Assembly: GCF_029714425.1 (NCBI RefSeq) | Contig: NZ_CP121668.1 | Span: forward strand, 7,337,501-7,401,500 | DNA length: 64,000 nucleotides | Source of the DNA: Bradyrhizobium sp. CB2312 | GTDB lineage: Bacteria; Pseudomonadota; Alphaproteobacteria; Rhizobiales; Xanthobacteraceae | Reading direction: 5' to 3' | Part shown: one piece after another, positions 13,825-51,332 of the stretch | Numbering within the stretch: the first letter of the stretch is position 1 | How the letters are laid out: each line of letters opens with the position of its first letter | Made by a program: the position numbers and the translations under genes | The notes under the pieces: generated by a model | What the model was told of the DNA's origin: nothing | The model's input: only the letters and a program-made list of their open reading frames with translations | The model's database searches: none

Positions 13825-13838
13825 TTGATCAGGCTCAA
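13825..13838. promoter_or_regulatory. FixK/FNR-type box (TTGATCAGGCTCAA)
   Basis: One half-site position differs from the TTGAT-N4-ATCAA ideal. It lies between the divergent cytochrome b561 and AhpD-like genes, about 104 bases before the latter. No other element is evident in this 300-base gap. Confidence 0.5.
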
Positions 13839-13941
13839 TGCATGCTTTCGCGCCGAGGTGCAAAATAGGGCCGGTCCCGCGATGTCGGCTACGACCAACC
13901 TTTCGCGATCCAGTACGTTGCAGATGCGCAGAGGGCAAGCC

Positions 13942-14295
13942 ATGGACAAAAACTATCCGGACATCACCCGGCAAATCTCCGCAAACCTGCGCAAGCTGCG
14001 CAACGACATCCCCGATACGATGAAAGGATTTGCCGTGCTCGCGCAGGCTGCCACGCGGGACGGCGCGCTCGACAAAAAGACCAAGGAACTGATTGCGCTC
14101 GCGCTCGGCGTCGCTGCGCATTGCGACGGCTGCATTGGCTTCCACATCGAAGCGCTCGTCAAGCTCGGGGCGACGCGCCAGGAGATCGAAGAGGCGCTCG
14201 GCATGGCCGTCTACATGGGCGGCGGGCCATCCCTGATGTACGCTGCCGATGCAATCGCCGCTTACGAACAATTCGCGGCGCAGCCCGCATCATGA
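13942..14295 (+). CDS. Carboxymuconolactone decarboxylase / AhpD-like protein
   Basis: The 117-residue protein has the AhpD-type thiol motif: Glu49, then Cys61-Asp-Gly-Cys64 and His68 (AAHCDGCIGFH). This implies a peroxidase or disulfide-reductase role, not a lactone decarboxylase role. The start is ATG 13942 (MDKNYPDITRQISANL); the frame is open far upstream but over sequence antisense to the cytochrome gene. A FixK-type box lies upstream. Related stand-alone proteins are often induced under stress. Its electron donor is not indicated. Confidence 0.9.
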   Translation: MDKNYPDITRQISANLRKLRNDIPDTMKGFAVLAQAATRDGALDKKTKELIALALGVAAHCDGCIGFHIEALVKLGATRQEIEEALGMAVYMGGGPSLMYAADAIAAYEQFAAQPAS

Positions 14296-14376
14296 CTTTG
14301 TATTTGCGGCTCCCTCCTGGCCGAACAGCCTGGCGGAGCCGGTGCGGCTTGCGATGCGCGCGGGCCGGCTCAACGA

Positions 14377-14390
14377 TTGAGCCACGTCAA
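14377..14390. promoter_or_regulatory. FixK/FNR-type box (TTGAGCCACGTCAA)
   Basis: A TTGA-N6-TCAA palindrome 111 bases before the alcohol dehydrogenase start. The family of such boxes repeats along this region ahead of functionally related genes. Confidence 0.6.
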
Positions 14391-14501
14391 GGCCCTTCTC
14401 ACACCCTGCGGGAAGTCGCATGTTGCGCCCGCGTAGCGAACGGCGCACACTGACTTCAGCTCCGGCGAGACAAGACCGGACGACGCATTACGAGCCGTAC
14501 C

Positions 14502-15485
14502 ATGTACGCGATGGTGCTTTCCGCGCGCGGCGCGCCGTTGACATTCCAGCAACGACCCGACCCGGTCCCCGGCCCCGGCGAGGTTCGCGTCAAGGTCAGC
14601 GCGTGCGGCGTGTGCCGGACTGACCTGCACGTGGTGGATGGCGAGCTGCCCGATATCTCCTATCCAATCATCCCGGGGCATGAAGTCGTGGGCCGCATCG
14701 ATGCACTCGGCGCAGGCGTCGATGAGTTGGAGTTGGGCATTCGCGTAGGTGTTCCATGGCTCGGCTTCACGTGTGGCGAGTGCTCTTATTGCCGCACCGA
14801 CAAGGAAAATCTCTGCGATCGTCCCGAATTCACCGGCTACACGCGCGACGGCGGCTTTGCCAGCCACCTTATCGCCAATGTCCGATATTGCTTTCCGCTC
14901 GGCGAGCACGGCGAGGACGCAGCTCTTGCACCGCTGCTTTGCGCCGGCCTGATCGGCTGGCGATCCCTGGTGATGGCCGGCGACGGCAAGACGCTTGGCA
15001 TTTTTGGCTTTGGCGCGGCGGGCCATATCGTCGCGCAGGTGGCCCACTCACAGGGGCGGAAAGTCTACGCCTTCACCCGTGACGGCGACAAGGAAGCACA
15101 GCAACTTGCGCTTGCGCTCGGCGCTGACTGGGCCGGCGCTTCAGGGGACATTCCGCCGACCGAACTCGATGCCGCCATCATATACGCGCCGGTCGGAGCA
15201 TTGGTGCCGCTTGCCCTGCGCTCGGTGCGCAAGGGCGGACGCGTTGTGTGCGCCGGCATTCACATGTCCGACATCCCATCGTTCCCCTATCGTATTCTTT
15301 GGGGCGAGCGGCAGATCGTATCGGTTGCGAACCTCACGCGAAAGGACGGCATCGATTTTCTCGCCGCCGCCGCAAAGGCCAATATCCAGACACACACGAC
15401 GGTATTTCCGCTCGTCGAGGCCAATGAAGCGCTCTCCCGTCTGAGGGACGGCAAGCTCATTGGCGCAGCCGTGTTGCGTCCCTGA
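14502..15485 (+). CDS. Zinc-dependent alcohol dehydrogenase (AdhP/AdhA-like MDR)
   Basis: The 327-residue medium-chain dehydrogenase oxidises alcohols with NAD(P). Catalytic zinc ligands Cys38, His60 and Cys147 are present, with Glu61 adjacent. The structural zinc set is Cys91, Cys94, Cys97 and Cys105. The nucleotide fold has GFGAAGH. The active-site context ACGVCRTDLHVVDGELP matches the AdhA/AdhP type of rhizobia. It sits behind a FixK-type box, so fermentative or low-oxygen aldehyde/alcohol turnover is likely. A P-type ATPase gene follows with its own box. Confidence 0.93.
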   Translation: MYAMVLSARGAPLTFQQRPDPVPGPGEVRVKVSACGVCRTDLHVVDGELPDISYPIIPGHEVVGRIDALGAGVDELELGIRVGVPWLGFTCGECSYCRTDKENLCDRPEFTGYTRDGGFASHLIANVRYCFPLGEHGEDAALAPLLCAGLIGWRSLVMAGDGKTLGIFGFGAAGHIVAQVAHSQGRKVYAFTRDGDKEAQQLALALGADWAGASGDIPPTELDAAIIYAPVGALVPLALRSVRKGGRVVCAGIHMSDIPSFPYRILWGERQIVSVANLTRKDGIDFLAAAAKANIQTHTTVFPLVEANEALSRLRDGKLIGAAVLRP

Positions 15486-15556
15486 CCGCAGCGTCTGGAG
15501 GCGACATGGTGAGCTCCTTTGGCCCGTGCAACCAAACCAACTTGTCCGAGACCGAA

Positions 15557-15570
15557 TTGAGCTGCATCAA
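15557..15570. promoter_or_regulatory. FixK/FNR-type box (TTGAGCTGCATCAA)
   Basis: TTGAG-CTGC-ATCAA lies 63 bases before the ATPase start at 15634. This spacing allows activation from around -41.5. Confidence 0.65.
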
Positions 15571-15633: not shown

Positions 15634-18177
15634 ATGATCGAGCAGCCTAGCGCGGCCAAGGCATTGGCCGCTGCCGACTTCTGGCGAACACCAAAAGACG
15701 CCCTCTACCGCGCGCTCGGCTCTGGCCCCAACGGCCTATCACAGGTCGAAGCGGATCGGCGCCTCGTGATCTTCGGAGCAAACCACGCTGTCGCCTCTCA
15801 AAGCCGATCGGTCCTGCGCAAGCTCGGGCAACGCGTTTGGAACCCCTTGATTGCAATGCTCCTGGTGGCCGCCCTCGTATCCGGATTAAGCGGCGACGTT
15901 GGCAGTTTCGTGATTATCGCGGCCGTGCTGTCTCTGTCCATCACGCTGGACATCGTTCAGGAACATCGCGCGGAGCTGACTGCCGAGGCGCTGCGCGAAT
16001 CGGTGGCCATTCGGGCTGACGCCGTCCGCGATGGCAAGGACGTTACGGTACCGGTGACGGAGCTTGTCCCCGGAGACATCGTGAAGCTCCGTGTCGGCGA
16101 CCTCATACCTGCCGATGGCATCGTCCTTGATGCCCAGGAATTGCAGGTCAATGAGGCTTTGATGACGGGTGAGCCGTTTCCGGCTTTCAAGACGGACGCT
16201 CCCTGCTCCGCGGCATCGCCGGCGGAGGCGACGAATGCGCTGTTCGCCGGAACCAGTACCGTCGGCGGAAGCGGCAGGATGTTGGTGGTGAAAACCGGAG
16301 GCCAGACCCGGTTTGGCGCGATCGCTTCGGCACTCGCGGCCAATGCTCCGCCAACGGCTCTCGAACAGGGTGTGCACAAGCTTGGACTCCTGATCCTTCG
16401 GCTTACGCTCTTTCTGACCCTCTTCGTGTTGTTGGCTCATCTCGTCGCGCAACGCGCCGCACTGGAGTCCTTCCTGTTCGCGGTCGCACTCGCCGTCGGC
16501 CTGACGCCTGAGCTGCTGCCCATGGTGATGACGGTGACGCTCGCCCGCGGCGCGCTGCGCATGGCGGACCGAAAGGTTATCGTCAAACGTCTGTCCGCAA
16601 TCCATGATCTGGGTGCCATGGACACGCTTTGCGTGGACAAGACTGGCACGCTGACGGAAGCCAAGATCACGCTCGAAGCGCATGTCGATCCGAAGGGGCG
16701 ACCCAGCGATCGCGTTCTGAGCCTCGCGTACCTCAACAGCATCTTCCAGGCCGGCGTCAGAAGTCCCCTCGACGATGCCATACTCTCCGCGCGGAACGGC
16801 GCCACAGATGGCTGGGTTCGGATCTCGGAAGTGCCGTTCGACTTCGAGCGAAGGTGCCTGTCGGTGCTGGCGGCACGGAACGACGAACGCATCTTGATCG
16901 CAAAAGGCGCTCCGGAATCCATCCTGGCCCGCTGCGTCGCCGTGGACATCGATGGTCTGGCCCATCCGCTCGACGCCGCCTGGCAGCAAAAAATGAGGGA
17001 CATCCAGGATCAATATGCCCGCGACGGTCTTCGGCTTCTTGCCGTCGCCGTCAGGTCTGTTCCGCCTGAGCAGCAGACGATTGCGGTCGGCGACGAGGCG
17101 GGTCTGACCATGATTGGGTACTGTGTCTTCGCTGATCCTCCGAAGCAGGATGCAGCCTCGGCCATTGAAGCCCTTACCTCGCTCGGCATAACAGTAAAGA
17201 TTCTCTCGGGTGACCACGGCGCAGTGGTCTCGCATGTCGCGCGATCGGTAGGTCTTCAGTCGGACCGTATCATGACCGGGGCCGAGATCTCGGAGCTCAG
17301 CGACGCCGCGCTCACGGCCCGTGTCGATAACATCGATCTGTTTGCCCGCATCGATCCTGATCAGAAACGACGGATCATTGCTGCACTCCGGAATCGCAAG
17401 CACGTGGTCGGCTTCATGGGGGACGGCGTCAACGATGCCCCGGCCATCCATGCAGCCCATGTCGGCATATCCGTCACGGGCGCAACCGAAGTCGCCCGCG
17501 CGGCCGCCGACATGATCCTGCTGGCCCCCGATCTTTCAGTCCTCGCGGCCGGCGTGCGCGAAGGCCGCAGAACTTTTGCTAACATCCTGAAGTATGTCCG
17601 AATGGGAACGAGCTCGAACTTCGGCAACATGCTCTCGATGGCCCTGGCCTCGATCGTTCTTCCGTTCCTGCCGTTGCTCCCGCTGCAGATCCTGCTGAAC
17701 AACCTGATCTACGACCTCTCCGAAATCGGCATCCCTTTCGATGAAGTCGACCGCGAAGACCTTGCGCAACCGGAAGCCTGGAACATGGCAAGCATCCTTC
17801 GTTTCACGATCATCATGGGAATTGTTTCTTCCGTGTTTGACGTGATTACCTTCGCCGTCCTTCTGAAGCTATTTGAAGCGAATGCGGCGCAGTTCCAGAC
17901 CGGGTGGTTCGTGGAATCAATATCGACGCAGATCCTGGTGATTTTCGTAATCAGATCTCGCCGGATGCCCTGGCGCGCAAACCACCCCCATATTGTCCTG
18001 ATCGCAACGTCTCTGGGCGCTCTTGCTGCCGGCGTGGCCCTTGCGCTCGGGCCATGGGGAGGACTGTTCGGCTTTACCCCACCTTCCGCGGCACTGCTGG
18101 CGACGATCATCGCTATCGCGGCTGCTTATCTCTTCTCTGCGGAGATTGCCAAGCGCCTAGCGGTTTCGGGTCCGTAA
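15634..18177 (+). CDS. P-type ATPase, P3B (MgtA-like) cation transporter
   Basis: An 847-residue P-type ATPase. I choose ATG 15634 (MIEQPSAAKALAAADFW) because the earlier open frame runs through the FixK-type box. An N-terminal cation_ATPase_N segment precedes the actuator motif TGEP (about 178-181). The phosphorylated Asp335 is in DKTGTLTE, and the hinge is GDGVND near 596-601. The M4 motif VGLTPELLPM resembles the MgtA/MgtB class, which imports Mg2+. There are no N-terminal metal-binding repeats. Placement with low-oxygen genes suggests ion homeostasis under energy stress. The Mg2+ assignment is by motif only. Confidence 0.88.
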   Translation: MIEQPSAAKALAAADFWRTPKDALYRALGSGPNGLSQVEADRRLVIFGANHAVASQSRSVLRKLGQRVWNPLIAMLLVAALVSGLSGDVGSFVIIAAVLSLSITLDIVQEHRAELTAEALRESVAIRADAVRDGKDVTVPVTELVPGDIVKLRVGDLIPADGIVLDAQELQVNEALMTGEPFPAFKTDAPCSAASPAEATNALFAGTSTVGGSGRMLVVKTGGQTRFGAIASALAANAPPTALEQGVHKLGLLILRLTLFLTLFVLLAHLVAQRAALESFLFAVALAVGLTPELLPMVMTVTLARGALRMADRKVIVKRLSAIHDLGAMDTLCVDKTGTLTEAKITLEAHVDPKGRPSDRVLSLAYLNSIFQAGVRSPLDDAILSARNGATDGWVRISEVPFDFERRCLSVLAARNDERILIAKGAPESILARCVAVDIDGLAHPLDAAWQQKMRDIQDQYARDGLRLLAVAVRSVPPEQQTIAVGDEAGLTMIGYCVFADPPKQDAASAIEALTSLGITVKILSGDHGAVVSHVARSVGLQSDRIMTGAEISELSDAALTARVDNIDLFARIDPDQKRRIIAALRNRKHVVGFMGDGVNDAPAIHAAHVGISVTGATEVARAAADMILLAPDLSVLAAGVREGRRTFANILKYVRMGTSSNFGNMLSMALASIVLPFLPLLPLQILLNNLIYDLSEIGIPFDEVDREDLAQPEAWNMASILRFTIIMGIVSSVFDVITFAVLLKLFEANAAQFQTGWFVESISTQILVIFVIRSRRMPWRANHPHIVLIATSLGALAAGVALALGPWGGLFGFTPPSAALLATIIAIAAAYLFSAEIAKRLAVSGP

Positions 18178-18196: not shown

Positions 18197-18210
18197 TTGA
18201 CGTGCGTCAA
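18197..18210. promoter_or_regulatory. FixK/FNR-type box (TTGACGTGCGTCAA)
   Basis: TTGAC-GTGC-GTCAA has perfectly complementary 5-base arms. It ends 56 bases before the universal stress gene start. Confidence 0.72.
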
Positions 18211-18266: not shown

Positions 18267-19100
18267 ATGTTCAGAGACCTGCTGGTGCACATTCCAACGG
18301 AGCGGTCACCGCGACCCGCCATCGATGCGTCCGTTTCCATGGCGATCAAGACCGGCGCGCACTTGGATGCTATTGCCACGGGATATGCGTCGACGAATGT
18401 GCCCTTTGTTGCGGAAGGCGGCGCAGCCATCGCATCATCGCTGCAATTCGAGTATGAACGTGCGCTGGAACGTGCCGATGCAGCACTTCGCATTTTTGAA
18501 GTCGAGGCGAAGAACGCTCGAATCAACTACGGAAAATGCGCACTGAGCGGGGCTATCGCCGAGACCGTTTCAAAAGTCGGGGCGACGGCGCGCCTTTATG
18601 ATCTCACGATCGTGTCACAAGGCGACCCGGATATCGAGACGTTCGACAACCGGCTTCCACAGGAGCTCCTCTTGCAGGCGGGCGGGCCGGTGCTATTCAT
18701 CCCCTATACTTTCCGCGGCGACTTCAAGGCGGCGCGCGTCGGCATCTGCTGGGACGGCAGCCGCCTTGCCGCCCGCGCCTTGCGGGATGCAATGCCTTTC
18801 ATCACCAACGCAGACGCCCTAACAACCATAACCCTCAATGCATCCGAGGTACCGTCCGACGCATCGCCCGACCGCCTCCTGACACACCTCGCGCGGAAGG
18901 GCTTGCCGGCGAAGACCGTTTCGCTTCAGTCCGACCGTGGCAATCTGCAGGCGAGCATCCTGTCGATTGCCGCGGATGAAAGCCTCGACCTACTGGTCAT
19001 GGGCGGTTACGGCCATTCTCGACTTCAGGAAACGGTGTTCGGCGGCGTCACGCGGGAGATGTTCCGCAGCATGACCGTTCCCGTCCTGATGTCGCACTGA
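18267..19100 (+). CDS. Universal stress protein, tandem UspA domains
   Basis: The 277-residue protein starts at ATG 18267 (MFRDLLVHIPTERSP) after GGGAGG. It contains two Usp folds, about 1-150 and 155-277. The second keeps the ATP-binding signature GGYGHSRLQETVFGG; the first has only a degenerate version. Such proteins bind ATP and support survival under energy or oxygen stress. A FixK-type box precedes it. It overlaps the next gene, a c-type cytochrome, by one base (TGATG), so the two are probably co-expressed. A second Usp gene lies at 30.4 kb. Confidence 0.93.
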   Translation: MFRDLLVHIPTERSPRPAIDASVSMAIKTGAHLDAIATGYASTNVPFVAEGGAAIASSLQFEYERALERADAALRIFEVEAKNARINYGKCALSGAIAETVSKVGATARLYDLTIVSQGDPDIETFDNRLPQELLLQAGGPVLFIPYTFRGDFKAARVGICWDGSRLAARALRDAMPFITNADALTTITLNASEVPSDASPDRLLTHLARKGLPAKTVSLQSDRGNLQASILSIAADESLDLLVMGGYGHSRLQETVFGGVTREMFRSMTVPVLMSH

Positions 19101-19441
19101 TGGAGCGCGACGTGACGAGAACCGTACGTGCCATCGCAGGCACCATATTTGCTGCGAGTTTGCTTCTCTCCTCAAACCCAACTGCGGCTTCAAGCGTCGA
19201 ACAAGGCCGACGTCTTGCGCTGCAGTATTGTGCAAAGTGCCACTCGACGGACAAGGTCAGCCCCAGCCCGCTCAAGATCGCTCCCCCGCTCAGGACGTTA
19301 CACGAACGATACCCGATCGAGATGCTGCAAGAGGCCCTGGCCGAAGGCATCGTCACTGGGCATCCGACAATGCCGGAATTTCGTTTCGATGCGGACCAGG
19401 TCGGCGATTTCATGGCGTTCCTGAAGACGTTAGAGCAATGA
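19100..19441 (+). CDS. Small monoheme c-type cytochrome (113 aa)
   Basis: A periplasmic electron carrier. Residues 11-30 form a Sec signal (AIAGTIFAASLLLSS...TAA). The heme motif is Cys44-Ala-Lys-Cys47-His48. The axial methionine is probably Met91 in HPTMPEF. It starts on the base that ends the stress-protein gene, so translation is coupled. Two related small cytochromes, at 39.5 and 40.8 kb, share the HPTMP/HPAMP/HQNMP region. Confidence 0.92.
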   Translation: MERDVTRTVRAIAGTIFAASLLLSSNPTAASSVEQGRRLALQYCAKCHSTDKVSPSPLKIAPPLRTLHERYPIEMLQEALAEGIVTGHPTMPEFRFDADQVGDFMAFLKTLEQ

Positions 19442-20914: not shown

Positions 20915-21691
20915 TCACGTGAAGCCGAGATTGCGGACCAGCATATAGATCGCCACCGCAAATATCAGGGCCGCGAATACGGTGTTCAATGCGCCTTTGC
21001 GCGCGGCGAGCGAGCTGGCCGAGCCGGCGCCGAGCATCCCGCCAAGAACTCCGCCGGAGATAAACAACGCGGCGAGATACCAATCCACGAAACCGGACAG
21101 GGCGTAGTTGGCCGCCGTCAGCCCGAAGGCTGTCACCGCCACAAGGGAGGAACCGACCGCATAGAGGATAGGCATGCCGGTGGCCGCAATCAGCGCCGGT
21201 ACGACTAGAAAGCCACCGCCGATCCCGAAGAAGCCGGACAAGGCTCCCGTGAGACCTCCCAGCGCGAAGAGTTTCGGCAGGTTCTCTCGGTTGAGCCGGA
21301 CCGATGGCTCGCCCGCGCCGGCGCGGCCCTTCAGCATCAGCGCGCCCACCGCCATCATGACGATAGCGAACAGCGCCAGCAACTTCTGTCCTTCGATGAC
21401 CTTGCCAAGGGTAGAGCCGAGAAAGGCGCCGGCCATGCCTGCGAGCGCGAACACGGAGGCGCAACGCCACTTCACATTGCCAGCCCGAGCGTGGTTGACG
21501 AGGTTCACTGCAGCGTTTGCCGCAACTGCGATCGCACTGGTGCCGATCGCCACGTGCGGATCCGACACCCCGACGAGATAGACGAGAAGCGGCACGGCCA
21601 AGATCGAACCGCCTCCTCCGACCAGCCCGAGCGAAAAGCCGACCAACGAGCCAGAGGCGAGACCGAGCGCACCTTGGGTCAGCGACAGCAT
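20915..21691 (-). CDS. TauE/SafE family sulfite/anion exporter
   Basis: The 258-residue membrane protein has about eight hydrophobic helices. The family's duplicated signature is present: GFSLGLVGGGGSILAVPLLVY near the start and GFFGIGGGFLVVPALI in the second half. I use ATG 21691 (MLSLTQGALG); a TTG nine bases further out is too close to GAGGAG. In BigR operons this type of protein is proposed to export sulfite made by persulfide oxidation. It is the distal gene of the minus-strand run ArsR - rhodanese - TauE. Confidence 0.93.
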   Translation of the reverse strand: MLSLTQGALGLASGSLVGFSLGLVGGGGSILAVPLLVYLVGVSDPHVAIGTSAIAVAANAAVNLVNHARAGNVKWRCASVFALAGMAGAFLGSTLGKVIEGQKLLALFAIVMMAVGALMLKGRAGAGEPSVRLNRENLPKLFALGGLTGALSGFFGIGGGFLVVPALIAATGMPILYAVGSSLVAVTAFGLTAANYALSGFVDWYLAALFISGGVLGGMLGAGSASSLAARKGALNTVFAALIFAVAIYMLVRNLGFT

Positions 21692-21720
21692 AGTGGGCAA
21701 CTCCTCATTTTAAGGCACTG

Positions 21721-22269
21721 TCACGTGGCCCGCGTGGGCGGGGCGTAGACGCTGCGGTTCCAAGGCGCGCGCATGAGAATCCGGGCCATGCCGCAAAAGC
21801 CCGTGACACCAGCCGCGAACAGCCCCGCACCGACGAAGGCCGGCACAGCAAAGAACCACGGCGATACGAAGAGCCCGAGCAGCGTGCCCACGACAGCAAG
21901 ACTGCCGGCCCCGATCTGCACTTGGCGCTGAAGCTCCAGCGGTTGGCGCCGGTCGTTCACGACCGGTAGGCCGGCCTTGCGCCAGGCGTCGAGCCCGCCT
22001 TCGACGATAAAGGCTTCGCAGGGTTCGCTCAGCTTCGTCGCGAGCCGTGGCGCGTTGGCCTGAGTGCGGGCGCCGCTTTTGCAATGAAAGATGACCGGCT
22101 TGCCCTGATGCAAGGCGAAGTCGGCCTCGTCGAGCTTCGACAGGGGAAGGTGCCGCGCGCCCGGAATTTTCGCGCGGGCGTGCTCATCAGCTTCGCGGAT
22201 GTCGATCAGGAGGGCACCACTGTCGAGAAGGCGGCGTGCCTCGGTCGGCTTGATTGTGGGTAGTGACAT
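21721..22269 (-). CDS. Rhodanese-domain protein with membrane tail
   Basis: A sulfurtransferase of 182 residues. The rhodanese domain (about 5-105) has the active Cys63 in the loop FHCKSGARTQ and the start PTEARRLLDSGALLIDIRE. Residues about 117-162 form two hydrophobic helices of the DUF2892 type, which tether it to the inner membrane. It lies between the ArsR repressor and the TauE/SafE exporter. It probably passes sulfane sulfur to or from the persulfide dioxygenase-like protein across the operator. Confidence 0.93.
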   Translation of the reverse strand: MSLPTIKPTEARRLLDSGALLIDIREADEHARAKIPGARHLPLSKLDEADFALHQGKPVIFHCKSGARTQANAPRLATKLSEPCEAFIVEGGLDAWRKAGLPVVNDRRQPLELQRQVQIGAGSLAVVGTLLGLFVSPWFFAVPAFVGAGLFAAGVTGFCGMARILMRAPWNRSVYAPPTRAT

Positions 22270-22293
22270 GATTAGCTCCTCTACTCTCCTAAA

Positions 22294-22623: not shown

Positions 22624-22634
22624 TGGTCAACTCC

Positions 22635-22673: not shown

Positions 22674-22716
22674 ATGTCAAGTTCAAACGAACCGGTGACA
22701 TCAGGAGATTCAAGCC

Positions 22717-24392: not shown

Positions 24393-24406
24393 TTGACGCG
24401 GATCAA
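24393..24406. promoter_or_regulatory. FixK/FNR-type box (TTGACGCGGATCAA)
   Basis: TTGAC-GCGG-ATCAA lies between the divergent DUF6064-like gene (start 24342) and the AMP phosphorylase operon (start 24619). It could serve either or both. Confidence 0.7.
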
Positions 24407-24618
24407 GTCGGAGGACCTGTTGAGGAGCCCGCCAGCCCCCGTTCGACCTGCCGCGTACCCGGAGACATTACGAGCGCATCGATCTCACTGAGGCGGCCGC
24501 ATCGCCGGCGCCCCACGACCTCTCCATGCTTGAGGACCGGCGACGGGTTGATCTGTCGCAAATCGGGCTCCTCGGCGAGCCCTATCCTCGCTTCGCCGCG
24601 ACAAAGAAGTTTTCATCG

Positions 24619-26151
24619 ATGAACGCCATTCCACCCGCCCGCGCCCAGCTCAGATCCCGCCGTGTCAATCTCGACACCGGCCGGGAAAACGTCGTTGTAA
24701 TCTCCCGCCGCTCAACGGCGCTGCGGCCGGACCTGTTTCGAGGATTTTCGAGAGTCGAGCTGCGTAGCGGCTCGAAGACGCAGCTGGCGACGGTCCTTCT
24801 CACCGATGACGACAGCCTGGTCGGGCCCGACGAGCTTGGCATGGCCGAGCCTGCTTTTCGCCGCTTTGGCCAGCCGGCAGGCAGCTACATTGCGGTCACC
24901 CCTGCTCCTTCGCCAGCAAGTCTGGACGCGGTTCGCTCCAAGATTCAGGGCAAGACCCTCGAGGCTTCCGAGATCGGCGCCGTCATCGACGATCTCGTGC
25001 ACTATCGCTATTCGGATATGGAAATCGCCGCGTTCCTCGTCAGCTCCGCCAATTTCATGACATCCGGTGAGTTGATCGCTCTTACGGAGGCCATGGCGAG
25101 AGCCGGAACGCAGCTCAGATGGAATGCCAGGACCGTCGTCGACAAGCATTGCATTGGCGGCATTCCCGGCAATCGCACGTCCATGATCGTGGTCCCGATT
25201 GTGGCTGCGCACGGACTGACAATCCCGAAGACGTCGTCGCGCGCGATCACGTCGCCTGCCGGAACGGCCGATACCATGGAGGTACTGGCCCGGGTCGACC
25301 TCAGCGTCGAAGCGATGAAGGAGGTCGTTGCCTCCTGCAATGGCTGCCTTGCCTGGGGCGGACACGTCAATCTGTCGCCGGCAGATGACATCCTGATCGG
25401 CGTCGAGCGGCCGCTGGCGCTGGATACGCACGAACAGATGGTTGCATCCATTGTGTCGAAGAAGCTGGCCGCCGGCTCGACGCATCTTCTCATCGACCTT
25501 CCCGTCGGGCCTAACGCCAAGCTTACGACTGCATCGCAGGCTATGCGGCTCCGCAAGCTGTTTCAGTTCGTCGGCGATCGGTTTGGCCTCGAAGTGGAGG
25601 TCGTGACCACCGATGGACGGCAGCCCATCGGCAACGGTATCGGCCCGGCGCTTGAGGCCCAGGACGTGATGGCAGTCCTCGCCAATGAGCCCCAGGCCCC
25701 GCGCGATCTTCGAGAGAAGTCGCTACGCCTTGCCGCACACCTTCTGGAACACGACCCTGACTTGCGCGGAGGCGCTGGCTATGCACGTGCAAGCGAGCTC
25801 CTGGAGAGCGGGGCGGCGCTTCGACAGATGGTGAAGATCATCGAGGCCCAGGGCCCAGCGCCTTCCGCCAGCGAAATCGGTAGTCTTACCCTCGACATTC
25901 ACGCCGCAAGAGACGGTGTCGTCTCCGCGATCGATTGCTTGCGCCTCAACCGGCTGGCGCGGACGGCAGGCGCCCCGCTCGACAAGGGCGCAGGCATCAA
26001 GTTGTTCAAGAAGATTGGCAATCGGGTCGAGCAAGGGGAGCCGCTCTATCGCATTCACGCGTTCGAGCCCTCGGGGTTTGACCTCGCTGTCGGCATGGCC
26101 CAGCTGGACTCTGCTTACCGGATCGAACCGCAAGCCGGGGCAGCGCCATGA
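24619..26151 (+). CDS. AMP phosphorylase / thymidine phosphorylase family protein
   Basis: A 510-residue protein of the long (archaeal AMP phosphorylase-like) branch of the pyrimidine phosphorylase family. It keeps the N-terminal domain before the catalytic core that ordinary DeoA enzymes lack. Core motifs are [16 protein letters not shown] (phosphate loop), [18 protein letters not shown] and [18 protein letters not shown]. Archaeal enzymes split nucleoside monophosphates to base and ribose-1,5-bisphosphate. I start at ATG 24619 ([16 protein letters not shown]); the frame opens at 24526. Its TGA overlaps the next ATG, so it is coupled to the PRPP-synthetase-like gene. Confidence 0.9.
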
Positions 26152-27068
26152 TCAGGAGTGCAGCTCAATGGCTGCCCACCTCCACCCATTTCGGGCCTCG
26201 GCTTGCTGAAATTCTGGGTATTGTCGGCCATGAAATCCTCTTGCATCGATTTCCCGATGGGGAGCTGCGGGCAACCGTCGGCCCAGCGGCGACCACCACG
26301 ATAGTCTGTTGCTCGCTCAATCAACCTAATGAAAAGCTGATTGCGCTGCTGTTTGCTGCGGAGGCCTTGCGGCGCGATGGAGCCAAGCGTCTCGTGCTCG
26401 TTTCGCCATATCTCGGCTACATGCGCCAGGACGCGGCGTTCCATCCGGGTGAGGCGATTAGTCAGCGCGCAATCGGCACCCTTCTGGCGAACACCTTCGA
26501 TTGCGTCATCACGTTTGATGCGCATCTCCATCGGACGCCGAACCTCGCCGAGGTCTTTCCTGGTATTGAAGCGCACAACCTGTCGGCGGCTCCTGCGATC
26601 GAAGCTGTGCTTCGTGCCGAGACAGTCGCGCCCACGACCGTTGTGGTCGGTCCCGATGAAGAATCGCGATCTTGGGTGGCCGACATTGCCGGCCGTCTCG
26701 GACTTGCGTACAGCGTGGCGCGAAAAGTACGCCGGAGTGATCAGTCGGTGCAGATCGCCTTCACAGACGCGTCGCTGTTCGCCGGCCGTCCCGTGCTCTT
26801 CATCGACGACATCGTGTCGTCCGGTGGGACCCTTACCGCCTGTGCGGAAGCTCTTGCCGCGTCAGGAGCCTCTTCTATCGAGGCCATCATCGTTCACGCA
26901 CTATTTCCGCGCGCACTGATGACAGCGTTCGGTCGCGCCGGCATTCGTTCCGTCCGATCCACCAACAGCGTGCCACATCCAACCAACGCCATCCGCCTCG
27001 ACGAACTTCTCGCTCGCGCGTTGCGGCGGGAAGTTGTTGGCATGCCGGAGACTGGGAGCCCCCCGTGA
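26148..27068 (+). CDS. Ribose-phosphate pyrophosphokinase (PRPP synthetase)-like protein
   Basis: The 306-residue protein has the PRPP synthetase layout: [13 protein letters not shown] near 33-45, [19 protein letters not shown] (ATP loop) near 86, [23 protein letters not shown], and the ribose-phosphate loop [11 protein letters not shown] at about 219-229. The flexible loop and the ASLxPAGGV-type region differ from housekeeping Prs, so it is a diverged paralog. It overlaps both neighbours (ATGA upstream, GTGA downstream). The context suggests it acts on ribose phosphates released by the phosphorylase; whether it accepts ribose-1,5-bisphosphate is inference. Confidence 0.88.
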
Positions 27069-28660
27069 GCGTCACCATCCAGTTTTGCGGCGCCGCCCGC
27101 ACCGTTACCGGCTCCTGCTATCTCTTTGCTACGCCGAAAGGACAATTCCTGGTCGATTGCGGGCTGTTCCAGGGACCGAAAACGTTGAAAGCGCTGAACT
27201 ATGGTGCATTCCCGTTTTGCCCCGCGGATGTCGATGCCGTTTTGCTGACGCATGCCCACATCGACCACAGCGGGCTCCTGCCGAAGCTCAAGCGTGAGGG
27301 CTTTTCAGGCCCGATCGTGGCGACGCGCGGCACCATCGACCTCTGCTCCTACATGCTTCCCGACGCAGGCAACATCCAGGAAACGGAGGTTGCCGCCTTG
27401 AACCGCCGAAACGCCGCCCGAGGGCGGGCCGCCGTCACGCCCATCTACAGCCAGGCCGATGCGATTGCGACGCTCGATGCCTTCCGCCCGGTCGAATACC
27501 AGACGTGGCACACGGTGGTGCCGGGCGTACGCGCCCGCTATTGGAATGCCGGCCATTTGCTCGGCTCGGCTTCGATAGAGCTGGAATTCGCCGATCAAGG
27601 CAAAAACGGAGGGCCGTTGCGTGTCTTGATGTCGGGTGACATCGGCCCAGACGCCAAATTGCTGGAGCCGGATCCGGAGGCACCGACCAACTTCGATTAC
27701 GTATTTTGCGAGTCGACCTACGGCGATAGCGACCGCCCGTCCACAACTCACGCGCTGCGGCGCGCGCATCTCGCCCAGGAGGTGCGCGATGCCGCCAGCG
27801 GACGCGGCGCGCTGCTAATCCCCGCTTTTGCGGTAGAACGCACCCAGGAGCTGATCGTCGACCTGGCCGACTTGATGGCCCGCGGCGAGATTCCGACCGC
27901 ACCGATCTTCCTCGATTCGCCTTTGGCGATCCGTGCGACGGAAGTCTTCCGGAATAACGCGGCCAGCCTCGATCCGAGCGTCGGTCTGGACCGGCTTCTG
28001 ACCTCCAGTCAGTTGCACTTCACGGAAACCGTTGATGAAAGCAAGTCGATCGCCAGGCTCTCCGGCTTTCACATCATCATTGCCGCAAGCGGAATGTGCG
28101 ACGCCGGCCGCATCCGCCATCATCTGAAGCGATGGTTGTGGCGCAGGGAGTGCACGGTCCTGCTTGCGGGATTCCAGGCTCAAGGCACCCTAGGCCGCTT
28201 CCTGCGAGATGGCGCGAAAGCGGTGAGGATTCAGGGCGAAGAGATCAAAGTCGCTGCGAGGATTCGATATATCGACGAATACTCCGGGCACGCCGACGGT
28301 CCGGAACTCGCGCGCTGGATTGCCGCTCGGCGTCCCATTCATCGTGGTCTGTTGATCGTGCATGGGGAAGAGCACGCGCTCGGAGGCCTTCTGCACCGGG
28401 TCGCCGAACGGACCGTGCCAACAGCGCAGATTTTCACGCCGATGCTGGACGACGTCTACGAATTATCGACAGCCGCGCCGACACCGATCGACGTTGCTCG
28501 CCGCCGCAGGCTCGCTCCCGATGCAGTCGTCAACCTCGATTGGCACAACGATATGTCCAAACTGCTTCTCGATATCAACGACCAGATCGAAGCGGCCGCA
28601 GACGATCGATCACGGGGCGTGATCATCCGAAAATTGCGCAGAGCGCTCGAAGAGATGTGA
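27065..28660 (+). CDS. Beta-CASP metallo-beta-lactamase RNase (CPSF-like)
   Basis: A 531-residue metallo-hydrolase. It starts at GTG 27065 ([20 protein letters not shown]), overlapping the previous stop. The metal motif is THAHIDHSGLLP (about 59-70). The beta-CASP insert holds ASGMCDAGRIRHHL, and the RMMBL end has YIDEYSGHADGPEL. Relatives are RNA endo/exonucleases of the CPSF-73 type. As the third gene of a tightly coupled operon with AMP phosphorylase and a PRPP-synthetase-like enzyme, it may supply nucleotides from RNA. Nuclease activity is inferred from motifs. Confidence 0.92.
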   Translation: MSVTIQFCGAARTVTGSCYLFATPKGQFLVDCGLFQGPKTLKALNYGAFPFCPADVDAVLLTHAHIDHSGLLPKLKREGFSGPIVATRGTIDLCSYMLPDAGNIQETEVAALNRRNAARGRAAVTPIYSQADAIATLDAFRPVEYQTWHTVVPGVRARYWNAGHLLGSASIELEFADQGKNGGPLRVLMSGDIGPDAKLLEPDPEAPTNFDYVFCESTYGDSDRPSTTHALRRAHLAQEVRDAASGRGALLIPAFAVERTQELIVDLADLMARGEIPTAPIFLDSPLAIRATEVFRNNAASLDPSVGLDRLLTSSQLHFTETVDESKSIARLSGFHIIIAASGMCDAGRIRHHLKRWLWRRECTVLLAGFQAQGTLGRFLRDGAKAVRIQGEEIKVAARIRYIDEYSGHADGPELARWIAARRPIHRGLLIVHGEEHALGGLLHRVAERTVPTAQIFTPMLDDVYELSTAAPTPIDVARRRRLAPDAVVNLDWHNDMSKLLLDINDQIEAAADDRSRGVIIRKLRRALEEM

Positions 28661-31281: not shown

Positions 31282-31295
31282 TTGATGCACATCAA
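31282..31295. promoter_or_regulatory. FixK/FNR-type box (TTGATGCACATCAA)
   Basis: TTGAT-GCAC-ATCAA has the ideal half-sites. It lies 61 bases before the minus-strand universal stress gene. Confidence 0.82.
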
Positions 31296-31849: not shown

Positions 31850-31863
31850 TTGATCCCGATCAA
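31850..31863. promoter_or_regulatory. FixK/FNR-type box (TTGATCCCGATCAA)
   Basis: TTGAT-CCCG-ATCAA has ideal half-sites. It lies 55 bases upstream of the host-attachment gene on the minus strand. Confidence 0.82.
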
Positions 31864-32450: not shown

Positions 32451-32464
32451 TTGATGCAAATCAA
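32451..32464. promoter_or_regulatory. FixK/FNR-type box (TTGATGCAAATCAA)
   Basis: TTGAT-GCAA-ATCAA has ideal half-sites. It lies 79 bases before the start of the RND adaptor gene. Confidence 0.82.
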
Positions 32465-39454: not shown

Positions 39455-39468
39455 TTGAGCGGAATCAA
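39455..39468. promoter_or_regulatory. FixK/FNR-type box (TTGAGCGGAATCAA)
   Basis: TTGAG-CGGA-ATCAA lies 36 bases before the first possible start of the P1B-5 ATPase. This spacing is short and would give a very short leader, so a start at the internal ATG 39412 is also possible. Confidence 0.6.
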
Positions 39469-39853: not shown

Positions 39854-39929
39854 CGCAGTCGTTCCCGCGAAACAGTTCACCAGCGCGAGGTCGCCTTCCC
39901 ACACGATGTCACCGCCGCTGAAGGCCAGC

Positions 39930-39943
39930 TTGATGCAGCTCAA
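39930..39943. promoter_or_regulatory. FixK/FNR-type box (TTGATGCAGCTCAA)
   Basis: TTGAT-GCAG-CTCAA differs from the ideal in one base of the second arm. It lies upstream of the minus-strand cytochrome start. Confidence 0.6.
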
Positions 39944-40092: not shown

Positions 40093-40106
40093 TTGACCTG
40101 CCTCAA
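40093..40106. promoter_or_regulatory. FixK/FNR-type box (TTGACCTGCCTCAA)
   Basis: TTGAC-CTGC-CTCAA lies 49 bases before the ATG of the flavin-oxidase-fold gene, with a good ribosome site between them. Confidence 0.55.
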
Positions 40107-46995: not shown

Positions 46996-48180
46996 GTCAC
47001 GTGAATCTAAAGTTCGCCACATAAAGTCTGCTGGGCTTTGTGGCAGAAGCGTTTGACGGAAGCCAAAATCTGGTCTGCGGACTTGGTCCATTTGAAGGGC
47101 TTGGGATTTTTGTTGTGCAGGTCGATGAAGGTACGGATGTCGGCCTCGAGCTGCCTGACGGAGGTGTGAACACCTCGCTGGATCTGCTTTCGGGTGAGCT
47201 CAGCGAACCAGCGTTCGACCTGATTGATCCATGACGCGGAAGTCGGCGTGAAGTGGACATGATAATGCGGCCGACGGGCGAGCCACGCTTTGATCTTGGG
47301 TGTTTTGTGAGTGGCGTAGTTGTCCATGACGATATGGACATCGATCCCTTCAGGGACTTGAGCGTCGATCTCTTTGAGGAACTTCAAGAACTCGACTGCC
47401 CGGTGGCGCTTGTAGCATTTGCCGATGACGAATCCAGAGGCGACATCGAGCGCGGCAAACAGCGAGGTCGTACCATGCCGCACATAGCTGTGCGTGCGCC
47501 GTTCCGGTACGCCCGGCATCATCGGCAGGACCGGCTGCTCGCGATCCAGGGCCTGGATCTGGCTTTTCTCATCGACACTGAGGACAAGGGCTCGGTTCGG
47601 TGGGGAAAGGTAAAGGCCGACGATATCGCGGACCTTGTCGACGAACAGCGGGTCGCTCGACAGCTTGAATGTCTGGCTGCGGTGCGGCTGCAGGCCGAAC
47701 GCCGTCCACATTCGGCGGATCGTGGTGTGGGAAAAGCCAGTTTCCGCAGCCATTGAGCGGATCGACCAGTGCGTCGCGTCGGGTGGCGTTGTACGCAATG
47801 TCCGCTCAATTACCTCAGCAACCTGATCGTCGTTGATGGTTCGAGGGCGGCCCGGGCGGGCCTCGTCAAGCAGGCCATCACAGCGATCCTTCAAAAATCG
47901 GCGGCGCCACTTGCCGACGGTGTGTTCGTGGAGGCCGAGTTCGACAGCCACAGACTTGCTTGGCAAGCCATCCGCACACCGCAGGATCGCGCGGCAGCGC
48001 TCAGATAGCGATCGGGCAACGCGATGACGACGAACTTGTCTCTCCAAGTACGCCCGCTCCGGCGGACTAAGCACCAACGGCGCGATCGGCCGGCCTCGCT
48101 CACCTGCATTCGCCACAAGCTCTCTCCTCTGTAGAGATTCGAGCTATCAACTAATGTGACGAACTTGCGTTCCAGATGAC
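46996..48180 (-). mobile_element. IS630-family element, first tandem copy
   Basis: The 1185-base element is bounded by TA at 46994-46995 and 48181-48182. Its ends are imperfect inverted repeats of about 27 bases: the left begins GTCACGTGAATC and the right, read in reverse, GTCATCTGGAAC, with AAGTTCG and CACAT shared. The sole gene is the transposase at 47007-48116. It is followed without gap by an identical copy. Confidence 0.9.
47007..48116 (-). CDS. IS630-family DDE transposase, first copy
   Basis: A 369-residue transposase. The N-terminal helix-turn-helix region (about 20-110) includes SKSVAVELGLHEHTVGKWRRRFL and a winged second part. The DDE triad is in LSVDEKSQIQALD, HIVMDNYATHK and WINQVERWFAELTRK. 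The frame is intact and the coding DNA identical to the second copy, so both may be active. Confidence 0.93.
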   Translation of the reverse strand: MANAGERGRPIAPLVLSPPERAYLERQVRRHRVARSLSERCRAILRCADGLPSKSVAVELGLHEHTVGKWRRRFLKDRCDGLLDEARPGRPRTINDDQVAEVIERTLRTTPPDATHWSIRSMAAETGFSHTTIRRMWTAFGLQPHRSQTFKLSSDPLFVDKVRDIVGLYLSPPNRALVLSVDEKSQIQALDREQPVLPMMPGVPERRTHSYVRHGTTSLFAALDVASGFVIGKCYKRHRAVEFLKFLKEIDAQVPEGIDVHIVMDNYATHKTPKIKAWLARRPHYHVHFTPTSASWINQVERWFAELTRKQIQRGVHTSVRQLEADIRTFIDLHNKNPKPFKWTKSADQILASVKRFCHKAQQTLCGEL

Positions 48181-48182
48181 TA

Positions 48183-49367
48183 GTCACGTGAATCTAAAGT
48201 TCGCCACATAAAGTCTGCTGGGCTTTGTGGCAGAAGCGTTTGACGGAAGCCAAAATCTGGTCTGCGGACTTGGTCCATTTGAAGGGCTTGGGATTTTTGT
48301 TGTGCAGGTCGATGAAGGTACGGATGTCGGCCTCGAGCTGCCTGACGGAGGTGTGAACACCTCGCTGGATCTGCTTTCGGGTGAGCTCAGCGAACCAGCG
48401 TTCGACCTGATTGATCCATGACGCGGAAGTCGGCGTGAAGTGGACATGATAATGCGGCCGACGGGCGAGCCACGCTTTGATCTTGGGTGTTTTGTGAGTG
48501 GCGTAGTTGTCCATGACGATATGGACATCGATCCCTTCAGGGACTTGAGCGTCGATCTCTTTGAGGAACTTCAAGAACTCGACTGCCCGGTGGCGCTTGT
48601 AGCATTTGCCGATGACGAATCCAGAGGCGACATCGAGCGCGGCAAACAGCGAGGTCGTACCATGCCGCACATAGCTGTGCGTGCGCCGTTCCGGTACGCC
48701 CGGCATCATCGGCAGGACCGGCTGCTCGCGATCCAGGGCCTGGATCTGGCTTTTCTCATCGACACTGAGGACAAGGGCTCGGTTCGGTGGGGAAAGGTAA
48801 AGGCCGACGATATCGCGGACCTTGTCGACGAACAGCGGGTCGCTCGACAGCTTGAATGTCTGGCTGCGGTGCGGCTGCAGGCCGAACGCCGTCCACATTC
48901 GGCGGATCGTGGTGTGGGAAAAGCCAGTTTCCGCAGCCATTGAGCGGATCGACCAGTGCGTCGCGTCGGGTGGCGTTGTACGCAATGTCCGCTCAATTAC
49001 CTCAGCAACCTGATCGTCGTTGATGGTTCGAGGGCGGCCCGGGCGGGCCTCGTCAAGCAGGCCATCACAGCGATCCTTCAAAAATCGGCGGCGCCACTTG
49101 CCGACGGTGTGTTCGTGGAGGCCGAGTTCGACAGCCACAGACTTGCTTGGCAAGCCATCCGCACACCGCAGGATCGCGCGGCAGCGCTCAGATAGCGATC
49201 GGGCAACGCGATGACGACGAACTTGTCTCTCCAAGTACGCCCGCTCCGGCGGACTAAGCACCAACGGCGCGATCGGCCGGCCTCGCTCACCTGCATTCGC
49301 CACAAGCTCTCTCCTCTGTAGAGATTCGAGCTATCAACTAATGTGACGAACTTGCGTTCCAGATGAC
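48183..49367 (-). mobile_element. IS630-family element, second tandem copy
   Basis: Offset from the first copy by exactly 1187 bases (1185 plus a shared TA), same orientation, TA at 49368-49369 on its far side. The original target is thus probably CTAG, now present at 46993, 48180 and 49367. No base difference was seen between the copies. Confidence 0.9.
48194..49303 (-). CDS. IS630-family DDE transposase, second copy
   Basis: Protein identical to the first-copy transposase over all 369 residues, with the same DDE motifs. The gap to the first copy's gene (48117-48193) is just the two element ends and the shared TA. Promoter sequences sit inside the element, so both genes should be read alike. 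Confidence 0.93.
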   Translation of the reverse strand: MANAGERGRPIAPLVLSPPERAYLERQVRRHRVARSLSERCRAILRCADGLPSKSVAVELGLHEHTVGKWRRRFLKDRCDGLLDEARPGRPRTINDDQVAEVIERTLRTTPPDATHWSIRSMAAETGFSHTTIRRMWTAFGLQPHRSQTFKLSSDPLFVDKVRDIVGLYLSPPNRALVLSVDEKSQIQALDREQPVLPMMPGVPERRTHSYVRHGTTSLFAALDVASGFVIGKCYKRHRAVEFLKFLKEIDAQVPEGIDVHIVMDNYATHKTPKIKAWLARRPHYHVHFTPTSASWINQVERWFAELTRKQIQRGVHTSVRQLEADIRTFIDLHNKNPKPFKWTKSADQILASVKRFCHKAQQTLCGEL

Positions 49368-50127: not shown

Positions 50128-50288
50128 ACCAGCGCTCGAAAAGATGAAGCAACGCCAGCCTCGGCGCCGATTCCGATCAACACCTTTCCAAATGACTGAC
50201 GTCATGCGCGCGTACCAAAGCGATTTCTCGACGCACCGACCGAGCGCATCAGACGAATTCCCTTGTCGATCGGCCCAGCCGTCGTTGA

Positions 50289-50507
50289 TTAGACAAGCAG
50301 GTTCGTAAAGAACGGCTCGGCAATCTCAGCGACTGATGGCTCTATCCCGTCAGATGCGACGGCGGTGATAAATTCGCGCTTACAGTTCCAGCAGCGCCAG
50401 AGCTCTTGGGCTTCGCGAGCATTGATGCGTTCACGCCACTCGAGATCGACCAACCCGGAACCACAGCGAGGGCATTTTTTGTCATGTGGTGCTGAGACCG
50501 ATGCCAT
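50289..50507 (-). CDS. Small zinc-ribbon protein (72 aa)
   Basis: Four cysteines, Cys12-xx-Cys15 (KCPRCGSGL) and Cys39-xx-Cys42 (RCWNCKREF), form a zinc ribbon. GAGGAAA is 7 bases before ATG 50507. The remainder, ASDGIEPSVAEIAEPFFTNLLV, has no known motif. A FixK-type box lies 53 bases upstream, so it may be an oxygen-regulated accessory gene. Function not recognised. Confidence 0.75.
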   Translation of the reverse strand: MASVSAPHDKKCPRCGSGLVDLEWRERINAREAQELWRCWNCKREFITAVASDGIEPSVAEIAEPFFTNLLV

Positions 50508-50560
50508 ATGGGCTTTCCTCGTTTTCGACGCGTAGCATGCGTTCTTGGCGGTATAGCGAA

Positions 50561-50574
50561 ATGATCTAGATCAA
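50561..50574. promoter_or_regulatory. FixK/FNR-type box (minus strand TTGATCTAGATCAT)
   Basis: Read on the minus strand it is TTGAT-CTAG-ATCAT, one base from ideal. It lies 53 bases before the zinc-ribbon gene. Confidence 0.7.
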
Positions 50575-50696
50575 CGACCTGCTCGCTCTTCCCCATAGCT
50601 GACTTGAGGTGTAAGCCATCGTCCGCAATTTTCGCCGAGGCCACTGCGTATCTGCCATTGGGACGCTCACCAACTGGCTAACCCCACTGCACGCTT

Positions 50697-51260
50697 CTAA
50701 CGCCGTTCGACTTCGGACTCTTGCTCCATCTGCAAGATGCGCGCTCGTAGCGCGTCGAAGGTTTCTTCGGCGGCCTCGCTGAACAGCGGATCCTCATGAT
50801 TGACTGTCGCCGAGGCGATCTCAGCCCAATCTGCCGGCTTGAGAGCCTTGAGGGCGGCGGGGAAGAAATCGCGGTCTTCGATCATGATGTGACGCCGCTC
50901 GCTCTCCATGAAATCGCGAACGATGTTGTCCACATTCTGCCGAAGAATCTCTCGATCCGCCAAAACACTGTCGATCGCCTGAGCGACGCGGCGCAAACGC
51001 TGGGTCCCTTTTTGGTGTTCGAGCGTCAGATCGCCGATCCTTGCCGCCGCAGCGGGGTCTCGAAGCTTTAGCTTGGAAAAGACCAATTCTTCTTGGGGAT
51101 GATGATACAGTTCCGGATAGAGCTCAAAGTAGCTGATAATCGCGCGAATGACCTCATAGTCGGGATGGTCCCCGCGATCGAAAATCTCAAGCTCGCGATC
51201 GAGTACGGCGAGTAGCGTCTCGATGTTGCGATGTTCCCGGGATAGACGCTCAATGATCAT
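50697..51260 (-). CDS. Hemerythrin-domain protein (187 aa)
   Basis: I start at ATG 51260 (MIIERLSREHRNIETLL), with GGAGG 5 bases upstream of the leader end; the frame opens four codons earlier. Candidate diiron ligands are His10, His53 or His54 with Glu57/58, His82, His124 and Glu128. Such DUF438/hemerythrin HHE proteins bind oxygen, nitric oxide or iron. It is the stand-alone relative of the domain fused to the P1B-5 ATPase. A TTGCG-type FixK box lies 58 bases upstream. Confidence 0.92.
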   Translation of the reverse strand: MIIERLSREHRNIETLLAVLDRELEIFDRGDHPDYEVIRAIISYFELYPELYHHPQEELVFSKLKLRDPAAAARIGDLTLEHQKGTQRLRRVAQAIDSVLADREILRQNVDNIVRDFMESERRHIMIEDRDFFPAALKALKPADWAEIASATVNHEDPLFSEAAEETFDALRARILQMEQESEVERR

Positions 51261-51318
51261 TGCGACCTCCAATGAACCATTGAATGATGGAAGCTATCTT
51301 GAAAACGATCCCAGTTTC

Positions 51319-51332
51319 TTGCGCTAGATCAA
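51319..51332. promoter_or_regulatory. FixK/FNR-type box (TTGCGCTAGATCAA)
   Basis: TTGCG-CTAG-ATCAA uses the TTGC half-site that FixK2-type regulators also accept. It lies 58 bases before the hemerythrin gene (minus strand). Confidence 0.62.

Follow-up and report, generated by a model that had tools for sequence, protein, structure and literature searches.

A dense cluster of FixK-type boxes marks a candidate low-oxygen regulon island in Bradyrhizobium sp. CB2312

Genes and boxes of the island

A block of stress-response, cytochrome and metal-transport genes was analysed within a 64,000-nt stretch of DNA from Bradyrhizobium sp. CB2312 (contig NZ_CP121668.1, positions 7,337,501 to 7,401,500; this whole stretch is the window, and coordinates are counted from its first letter). 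A first-pass annotation, made from the letters, had listed 13 palindromes here and read them as sites of FixK/FNR-type regulators marking one coordinated low-oxygen regulon island. The published consensus for the regulator FixK2 is TTGA/C-N6-T/GCAA (PMC9104804, PMC6710368); below, TTGA-N6-TCAA is called the strict form and other matches to the consensus are called relaxed. Gene identities were taken from Pfam and NCBIfam profile searches. The Mg-type P-ATPase matched TIGR01524 with 790.9 bits (cut-off 610.75), and the RND pump operon scored above the cut-off of TIGR00914. The boxes of the island and the genes behind them are as follows.

13825..13838, no strand assigned: FixK-type box TTGATCAGGCTCAA, common to the divergent genes for cytochrome b561 (13111-13776, minus strand) and a CMD/AhpD-like protein (13942-14295, plus strand)
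14377..14390, plus strand: FixK-type box before the zinc alcohol dehydrogenase (ADH) gene, 14502-15485; the weakest of the 11
15557..15570, plus strand: FixK-type box before the Mg-type P-ATPase gene, 15634-18177
18197..18210, plus strand: FixK-type box before a universal stress protein (Usp) gene, 18267-19100, followed by cytochrome c, 19100-19441
24393..24406, minus strand: FixK-type box before the DUF6064 gene, 23695-24342
24548..24561, plus strand: relaxed FixK-type box TTGATCTGTCGCAA of the RNA-salvage operon, with its first base at -71 from ATG 24619
24619..28660, plus strand: RNA-salvage-type operon, comprising a TP/AMP-phosphorylase-like gene (TP) to 26151, a PRPP-synthetase-like gene (PRS) at 26148-27068 and a beta-CASP MBL gene at 27065-28660
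31282..31295, minus strand: FixK-type box before a second Usp gene, 30399-31220, followed by CBS, 29837-30307, and OpgC, 28690-29802
31850..31863, minus strand: FixK-type box TTGATCGGGATCAA before a host-attachment/baeRF-family gene, 31348-31794
32451..32464, plus strand: FixK-type box before a CusA/CzcA-type RND operon (adaptor 32640-33674, pump 33675-36749, DUF3240 36746-37057)
39455..39468, minus strand: FixK-type box before a gene for a P1B-type ATPase with a C-terminal hemerythrin domain (the P1B-hemerythrin ATPase), 37109-39418
39930..39943, minus strand: FixK-type box before cytochrome c, 39491 to about 39853
40093..40106, plus strand: FixK-type box before the gene for a pyridoxamine-phosphate-oxidase-like (PNPOx) protein, 40156-40608

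Strict boxes numbered 14 in the window where 0.5 were expected, and none of 100 shuffles got to 14. Eleven of them are the island boxes (13825, 14377, 15557, 18197, 24393, 31282, 31850, 32451, 39455, 39930 and 40093), and the remaining three lie at 47374, 48561 and 56635. The 13 sites listed earlier comprise these 11 exact matches, the site at 51319 (TTGC-N6-TCAA, within the published relaxed consensus) and the site at 50561 (ATGA-N6-TCAA), which departs by one base from the form TTGA/C-N6-TCAA under which it had been entered; an ATGA half-site is on record for one FixK2-dependent promoter of B. diazoefficiens (PMC9104804). The box observation itself is confirmed, and so is the reported placement: all 11 strict sites lie outside genes as drawn by a home-made gene caller, at distances of mostly 36-111 nt from the start codon, the exception being the RND adaptor at 175 nt. 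Two sites were absent from the earlier list: a relaxed box at 24548, ahead of the RNA-salvage operon, and a strict box at 56635, ahead of a MaoC-like gene. A spacer sequence peculiar to the island boxes was sought by eye and none was evident. The sites to the right of the core are given below.

50561..50574, minus strand: one-off box ATGATCTAGATCAA before the gene for a 72-aa CxxC/CxxC protein, start 50507
51319..51332, minus strand: relaxed FixK-type box TTGCGCTAGATCAA before a hemerythrin-like gene, 50697-51260, with a -10-like TAGCTT at offset 22
56635..56648, minus strand: strict FixK-type box outside the core island, before the MaoC-like gene, 56098-56562, with TATAGT 20 nt downstream

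The strict matches at 47374 and 48561 sit within two transposase gene copies, and their 14-mer, TTGAGGAACTTCAA, has 10 genomic copies, both included. These two reading frames (window 47007-49303) are of equal length, on the same strand and 1187 bp apart; the one that was scanned is of DDE_3 (IS630) type. A relaxed match at 22100 falls inside the rhodanese gene.

Box density, promoter layout and conservation

The genome, a single contig of 9.78 Mb, holds 207 strict sites, compared with 35 for a reversed control pattern. Using four sub-patterns, 198 of the 207 were placed (188 of 197 without the ten transposase copies), the nine beyond 8.29 Mb not being among the sites placed. The 11 strict boxes between 13825 and 40106 (26.3 kb) form the genome's top cluster at that scale, with runners-up of 8, 7 and 7; when 197 sites were placed at random 2000 times, no 26.3-kb stretch held more than 7. 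At a scale of 10 kb the island (6) is level with a cluster at 3285442 (6). A comparison with control non-coding DNA had been proposed along with the original reading, and its outcome agrees with that reading: 4.8 kb of non-coding DNA in the island carries 11 strict boxes (2.3 per kb) and the coding DNA none, whereas 19 evenly spaced 20-kb control regions, likewise divided by a home-made gene caller, carry 2 in 73.6 kb of non-coding DNA (0.027 per kb) and 3 in coding DNA. Three regions picked for their boxes have more of them per kb of non-coding DNA (L313, 4.4; L314, 2.9; L309, 2.9) because they contain little non-coding DNA, and the island is therefore the largest cluster of FixK-type boxes rather than the sole one. 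The relaxed form discriminates poorly, with 15 non-coding matches in the 19 control regions, 2 of these strict, and by itself is weak evidence.

The island boxes also share a promoter layout. A TATAAT-like hexamer follows 21 or 22 nt past the box; when the 11 boxes are read towards their genes (12 readings), its mean score is 7.25, and 0 of 20000 random-offset draws scored as high. In this scoring the TP orientation of box 24393 was omitted and box 13825, which has -10-like hexamers at offset 21/22 in both directions (scores 10 and 8), was counted both ways; taking one orientation per box gave the same result. As an independent check, a further 31 box orientations from the same genome were scored, and their -10 peak also fell at offset 21. 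A spacing of 21/22 nt from box to -10 element fits class II FNR/FixK promoters. Most transcription units of the island very probably have a class II FNR/FixK-type promoter.

Conservation of the boxes was scored in homologues from other genomes, over 300 nt of upstream sequence and against 11 permuted half-sites; the window's own copy is counted among the loci for Usp, PNPOx, the RND adaptor, both P-ATPases and DUF6064. A strict box was found upstream at 29 of 30 loci for the Usp gene at 18267-19100, at 12 of 12 for PNPOx (12 of 23 loci counted, weaker or fragmentary matches being excluded) and at 19 of 21 for the RND adaptor (21 of 30 loci counted, nine distant paralogues being excluded), with 0-1 for the permuted half-sites. 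Retention is partial for the Mg-type P-ATPase (11 of 30 loci, and 5 of 5 at 83% identity or above; permuted half-sites 0) and for DUF6064 (strict at 3 of 20 loci, with relaxed TTGC forms in 3 more). It is poor for the P1B-hemerythrin ATPase (6 of 30; permuted half-sites 0) and for ADH (2 of 7 loci, 2 of 4 at 69% identity or above, 0 of 1 in the aligned relative). All 30 alignments enter the P-ATPase counts; another pass took 28 of 30. Strict boxes stand before the baeRF/host-attachment gene in 4/4 relatives aligned and 2/2 in the upstream test, and before the second Usp gene (30399-31220) in 4/4 relatives aligned and 1/3 among the TP loci. With one relative aligned, box 13825 is kept before both cytochrome b561 (1/1) and CMD (1/1). 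A box was found for the CBS gene in 1 of 7 fetched relatives and for the third cytochrome c in 1 of 6. The hemerythrin-like gene (50697-51260) has the relaxed box in 5/5 relatives and the strict form in 0/5. The core of box 50561 is kept in the three relatives' stretches that align across it, one with a spacer change, and this box is probably a FixK-type site, though the weaker case. In 80 named loci surrounding the phosphorylase gene, a spacer of 6 gave 135 matches, compared with 5-27 for other spacers from 0 to 12 and 0-16 for other half-sites.

The box of the cytochrome c gene at 39491 to about 39853 is kept in 5 of 9 aligned relatives, the five at 77-89% identity. In the relative L271 a small membrane-protein-like frame lies between box and cytochrome c, and about 156 nt of it is missing from the window at 39853-39930.

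The promoter of the RNA-turnover operon was reassigned. Box 24393 had been listed with the RNA-salvage operon among the genes behind the boxes; it was rejected as the operon's promoter, scoring 0 for a -10 element towards TP and 8 towards DUF6064, and fits the latter gene, while the operon has a box of its own at 24548, with TATCCT at offset 21 downstream. Since phosphorylase homologues align mostly from residues 27-42 onward, the TP start is probably ATG 24619 and not the earlier call. For TP, 81 of 83 loci had adequate alignment and upstream sequence, and 58 of these 81 other loci have, at the same place, a box with no more than one mismatch (permuted half-sites 0-7); with the corrected start the counts are 6/81 for the strict and 11/81 for the relaxed form. 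A first pass had found a box in 3 of 77 loci only, because the called start lay about 31 codons too early and most of the orthologous boxes begin with ATGA. The commonest box form at this position, ATGATCTGGGTCAA, is the motif given at -74 for bll3117 of B. diazoefficiens in Table 2 of PMC9104804.

Several other features of the window and of its relatives were recorded. A TTAG-N6-CTAA palindrome lies between the ArsR-type and persulfide-dioxygenase-like genes in 3/3 relatives (L270, L275, L280), with no FixK box there, and may serve the local ArsR-type regulator as its operator. In the window, a ROSE RNA thermometer (RF00435, 51.8 bits) at 4675-4793 overlaps the start of an Hsp20 gene (4787-5239). 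A 1071-aa protein encoded at 57200-60415 resembles a TOMM system kinase/cyclase fusion (465.7 bits, under the cut-off of 705.75).

Candidate regulators and competing explanations

The first-pass annotation had seen no crp/fnr gene in the window and expected a distant FixK to coordinate the set. Both points find support. With 150 of 229 first-look candidates scored, none of 40 listed Crp-type HTH matches falls in the window. At a distance of 96 kb from the island, at about G000:C1:7255114-7255842, a FixK2 orthologue (L025) has FixLJ-like genes as its neighbours. It aligns over its full length with the solved FixK2 structure 4i2o (E=1.7e-138), has an identical recognition helix, and carries a cysteine (Cys183) where the crystal has serine. 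The gene order at this locus is PAS histidine kinase, FixJ-like regulator, receiver protein and FixK2, the FixL-like and FixJ-like genes being judged from domains and order. Another protein, L023, was dropped as FixK2 after the comparison with the solved structure pointed to L025. Within the window, a cNMP-domain protein (54925-55854, domain near the C-terminal end) has no HTH family in Pfam and matches the NCBIfam CRP model weakly (32.6 bits; cut-off 266).

From these data we infer binding of the boxes, a response to oxygen, and FixK2 rather than a paralogue as the activator. As oxygen falls, FixL would phosphorylate FixJ, which would raise fixK2 expression, and the FixK2 dimer would bind the TTGA-N6-TCAA boxes. 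With a -10-like hexamer 21/22 nt after the box, the dimer would be placed near -41.5 and could activate RNA polymerase. The predicted products are universal stress proteins, the Mg-type P-ATPase, the P1B-hemerythrin ATPase, the CusA/CzcA-type RND pump and cytochromes, together with alcohol dehydrogenase, the PNPOx-like protein, DUF6064 and the RNA-turnover operon. The idea of a coordinated FixK/FNR-type low-oxygen island, a probable survival block, draws support from box density, conserved boxes, -10 spacing, the lack of a listed Crp-type HTH match in the window and the FixK2 orthologue. The published behaviour of same-named B. diazoefficiens genes at 0.5% O2 and in a fixK2 mutant, given below, points the same way. 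The boxes are real, and for most island genes they are very probably functional, with FixLJ-FixK2 as the system that they most likely obey when oxygen is low; there is a strong case that FixLJ-FixK2 would turn on most units of the island through class II promoters.

Several observations weigh against this account. Five of six P1B-hemerythrin ATPase orthologues at 85-88% identity are without a box, and the ADH box was not found within 300 nt upstream of the 91% and 83% orthologues. The offset of 21/22 was first spotted on these same island boxes and then tested on them; box 14377, before ADH, scores 3 for a -10 element and is without a hexamer at the right place, and box 32451, before the RND operon, is marginal with a score of 5. 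Some genes of the island are not included, the ArsR/rhodanese/TauE/persulfide-dioxygenase-like block at 20915-23604 being without a strict box. In B. diazoefficiens, bll3115-3117, blr4240, bll4644, bll4645 and others rise at 0.5% O2 (PMC6515984 Table 2), yet these named genes are flagged there as outside the direct FixK2 targets of a 2008 study. Finally, FixK2 is one of several proteins that could use the site. Among the 18 of 40 HTH matches that were translated, similar recognition helices occur in six FixK-like proteins (TLETVSR/TIETISR type) and in one FNR-type protein with four cysteines, L021 (TIETVSR).

These similar helices give substance to the alternative that the main activator is a different Crp/Fnr protein, be it NnrR, L021 or a FixK paralogue other than FixK2. 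Against it stand published data for same-named genes of B. diazoefficiens, which have a putative FixK2 box and are expressed at a lower level when fixK2 is mutated (PMC9104804 Table 2): bll3117 (-6.6) and bll3115 (-30.6) of the bll3117-3115 operon (TP/PRS/MBL), blr4240 PNPOx (-25.1), blr4241 cytochrome c (-83.3), bll4644 Usp (-20.9), bll4645 host-attachment (-10.6) and bll4634 RND adaptor (-20.2). Such falls of 6.6- to 83-fold could be indirect, and another activator is an unlikely though real contender. The palindrome fixes 8 bases only, so that chance clustering might be considered, and the 14-mer at 47374 and 48561, which belongs to the transposase gene and recurs in the genome, might suggest a dispersed repeat containing the palindrome. 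Chance is refuted by the expectation of 0.5 strict boxes in the window, by the random placements and the control regions, and by the excess at spacer 6 in the 80 related loci, and a repeat element is refuted for the 11 strict island boxes, which have 10 different spacers and a best pairwise flank identity of 19/40. Each of these two explanations is left with next to no probability.

The composition and surroundings of the island bear on its origin. The codon score per codon is 0.130 for island genes and 0.228 for control genes (p=7.7e-8), and G+C is 61.8% vs 63.6%. This deviation is not special to the island because the stretch to its right scores lower still (codon score 0.095, G+C 58.5%); the low island score suits acquisition but could reflect low expression. 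Transposase genes lie right of the island at 45.8-49.3 kb, no tRNA was found in the window, and no integrase was found among the ORFs scanned with Pfam, which were part of the window's ORFs. The codon score, the adjacent transposase genes and the absence, by comparison with L271, of roughly 156 nt between a box and the cytochrome gene that it precedes would also suit boxes that are remnants, with the promoters of an acquired island decaying or silent in this strain. Eleven strict boxes with aligned -10 elements speak against decay, as does the fact that island genes are often 80-97% identical to their counterparts in the relatives G339, G335 and G024, and the remnant explanation is very improbable. 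Stretches of these three genomes, selected for holding island genes, hold the same cassettes, partly reordered, with 10 boxes in 20 kb (G339), 21 in 80 kb (G335) and 32 strict boxes in 100 kb (G024). The last of these, G024:C1:6090001-6190000 (L277-L281), is a larger version of the island.

Returning to control by FixLJ-FixK2, these findings suggest that a single block with near-uniform promoters can hold a large share of a low-oxygen programme, recur rearranged in relatives and be plugged into an existing regulator. A more tentative proposal, on balance somewhat doubtful, is that Bradyrhizobium has here a low-oxygen survival kit that is modular and circulates horizontally, its cassettes travelling with their own FixK-ready class II promoters. 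If this were true, any recipient with FixLJ-FixK2 would gain the whole programme at once, and the lxa locus described below and the DosR dormancy set of mycobacteria would have in the island a proteobacterial counterpart. With a low-oxygen programme gathered in one block, gene-by-gene tests of what bacteria need for survival at low oxygen, for example in nodules, would become practical, with the Mg-type ATPase, DUF6064, cytochrome b561/CMD and hemerythrin as candidate direct FixK targets and with the promoter of the RNA-turnover operon corrected.

The island among known systems

The island is an unusually compact instance of a regulon already described in the soybean symbiont, to which it adds some candidate members and one revised promoter assignment. 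It resembles the FixLJ-FixK2 regulon of B. diazoefficiens in box form, box-to-start distances and same-named genes, the likeness being by gene names (PMC9104804, PMC6515984, PMC6710368). Putative boxes of the same-named genes lie at -69 to -75 in Table 2 of PMC9104804, where the bll4645 host-attachment box has the same 14-mer, TTGATCGGGATCAA, and the same -69 position as box 31850. Unlike in that regulon, 11 boxes are here packed into 26.3 kb. The first-pass annotation had held that the FixK regulon was not known to include several of the genes. This was overstated for TP/PRS/MBL, PNPOx-cytochrome c, Usp, host-attachment and RND adaptor genes, which are tabulated in PMC9104804; it retains some force in that bll3115-3117, blr4240, bll4644 and bll4645 carry the flag in PMC6515984 noted above. 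Boxes for the Mg-type P-ATPase, the P1B-hemerythrin ATPase, DUF6064 and cytochrome b561/CMD are absent from the 37-gene Table 2 of PMC9104804, and no box for the first three was seen in Table 2 of PMC6515984 or Table 1 of PMC2908626. An iModulon study (PMC10454721) reports that 148 genes not yet assigned to the FixK2 regulon are potential targets.

Predicted alphaproteobacterial FixK/FNR regulons already include CBS, HlyD, cytochrome c, zinc ADH, Hsp20, UspA and heavy-metal P-type ATPase genes (PMC2908626 Table 1). Those predictions came from orthologue groups and not from a physical island, and hemerythrin, the TP operon, PNPOx and DUF6064 are unnamed in the portion of the table covered. In the main text of a later comparative study, usp, ATPase, hemerythrin and alcohol dehydrogenase do not occur (PMC4999443). 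No Bradyrhizobium island of this kind appeared among the titles and opening abstracts listed in literature searches. The island ATPase has the layout of P1B-5 ATPases such as Nia of Sinorhizobium meliloti, a P1B-type ATPase with a C-terminal hemerythrin domain (PMC9388753), and by this domain layout P1B-5 is its candidate subgroup.

As a physical arrangement, the island can be likened, from published descriptions, to the lxa locus of Burkholderia cenocepacia, which is also one block, is induced by low oxygen and is rich in Usps, with cytochrome c, heat-shock protein and phosphofructokinase genes (PMC6127331, PMC9733578). The lxa locus differs in belonging to another organism and in its size of about 50 genes, six of them encoding Usps (PMC6127331, PMC9733578).

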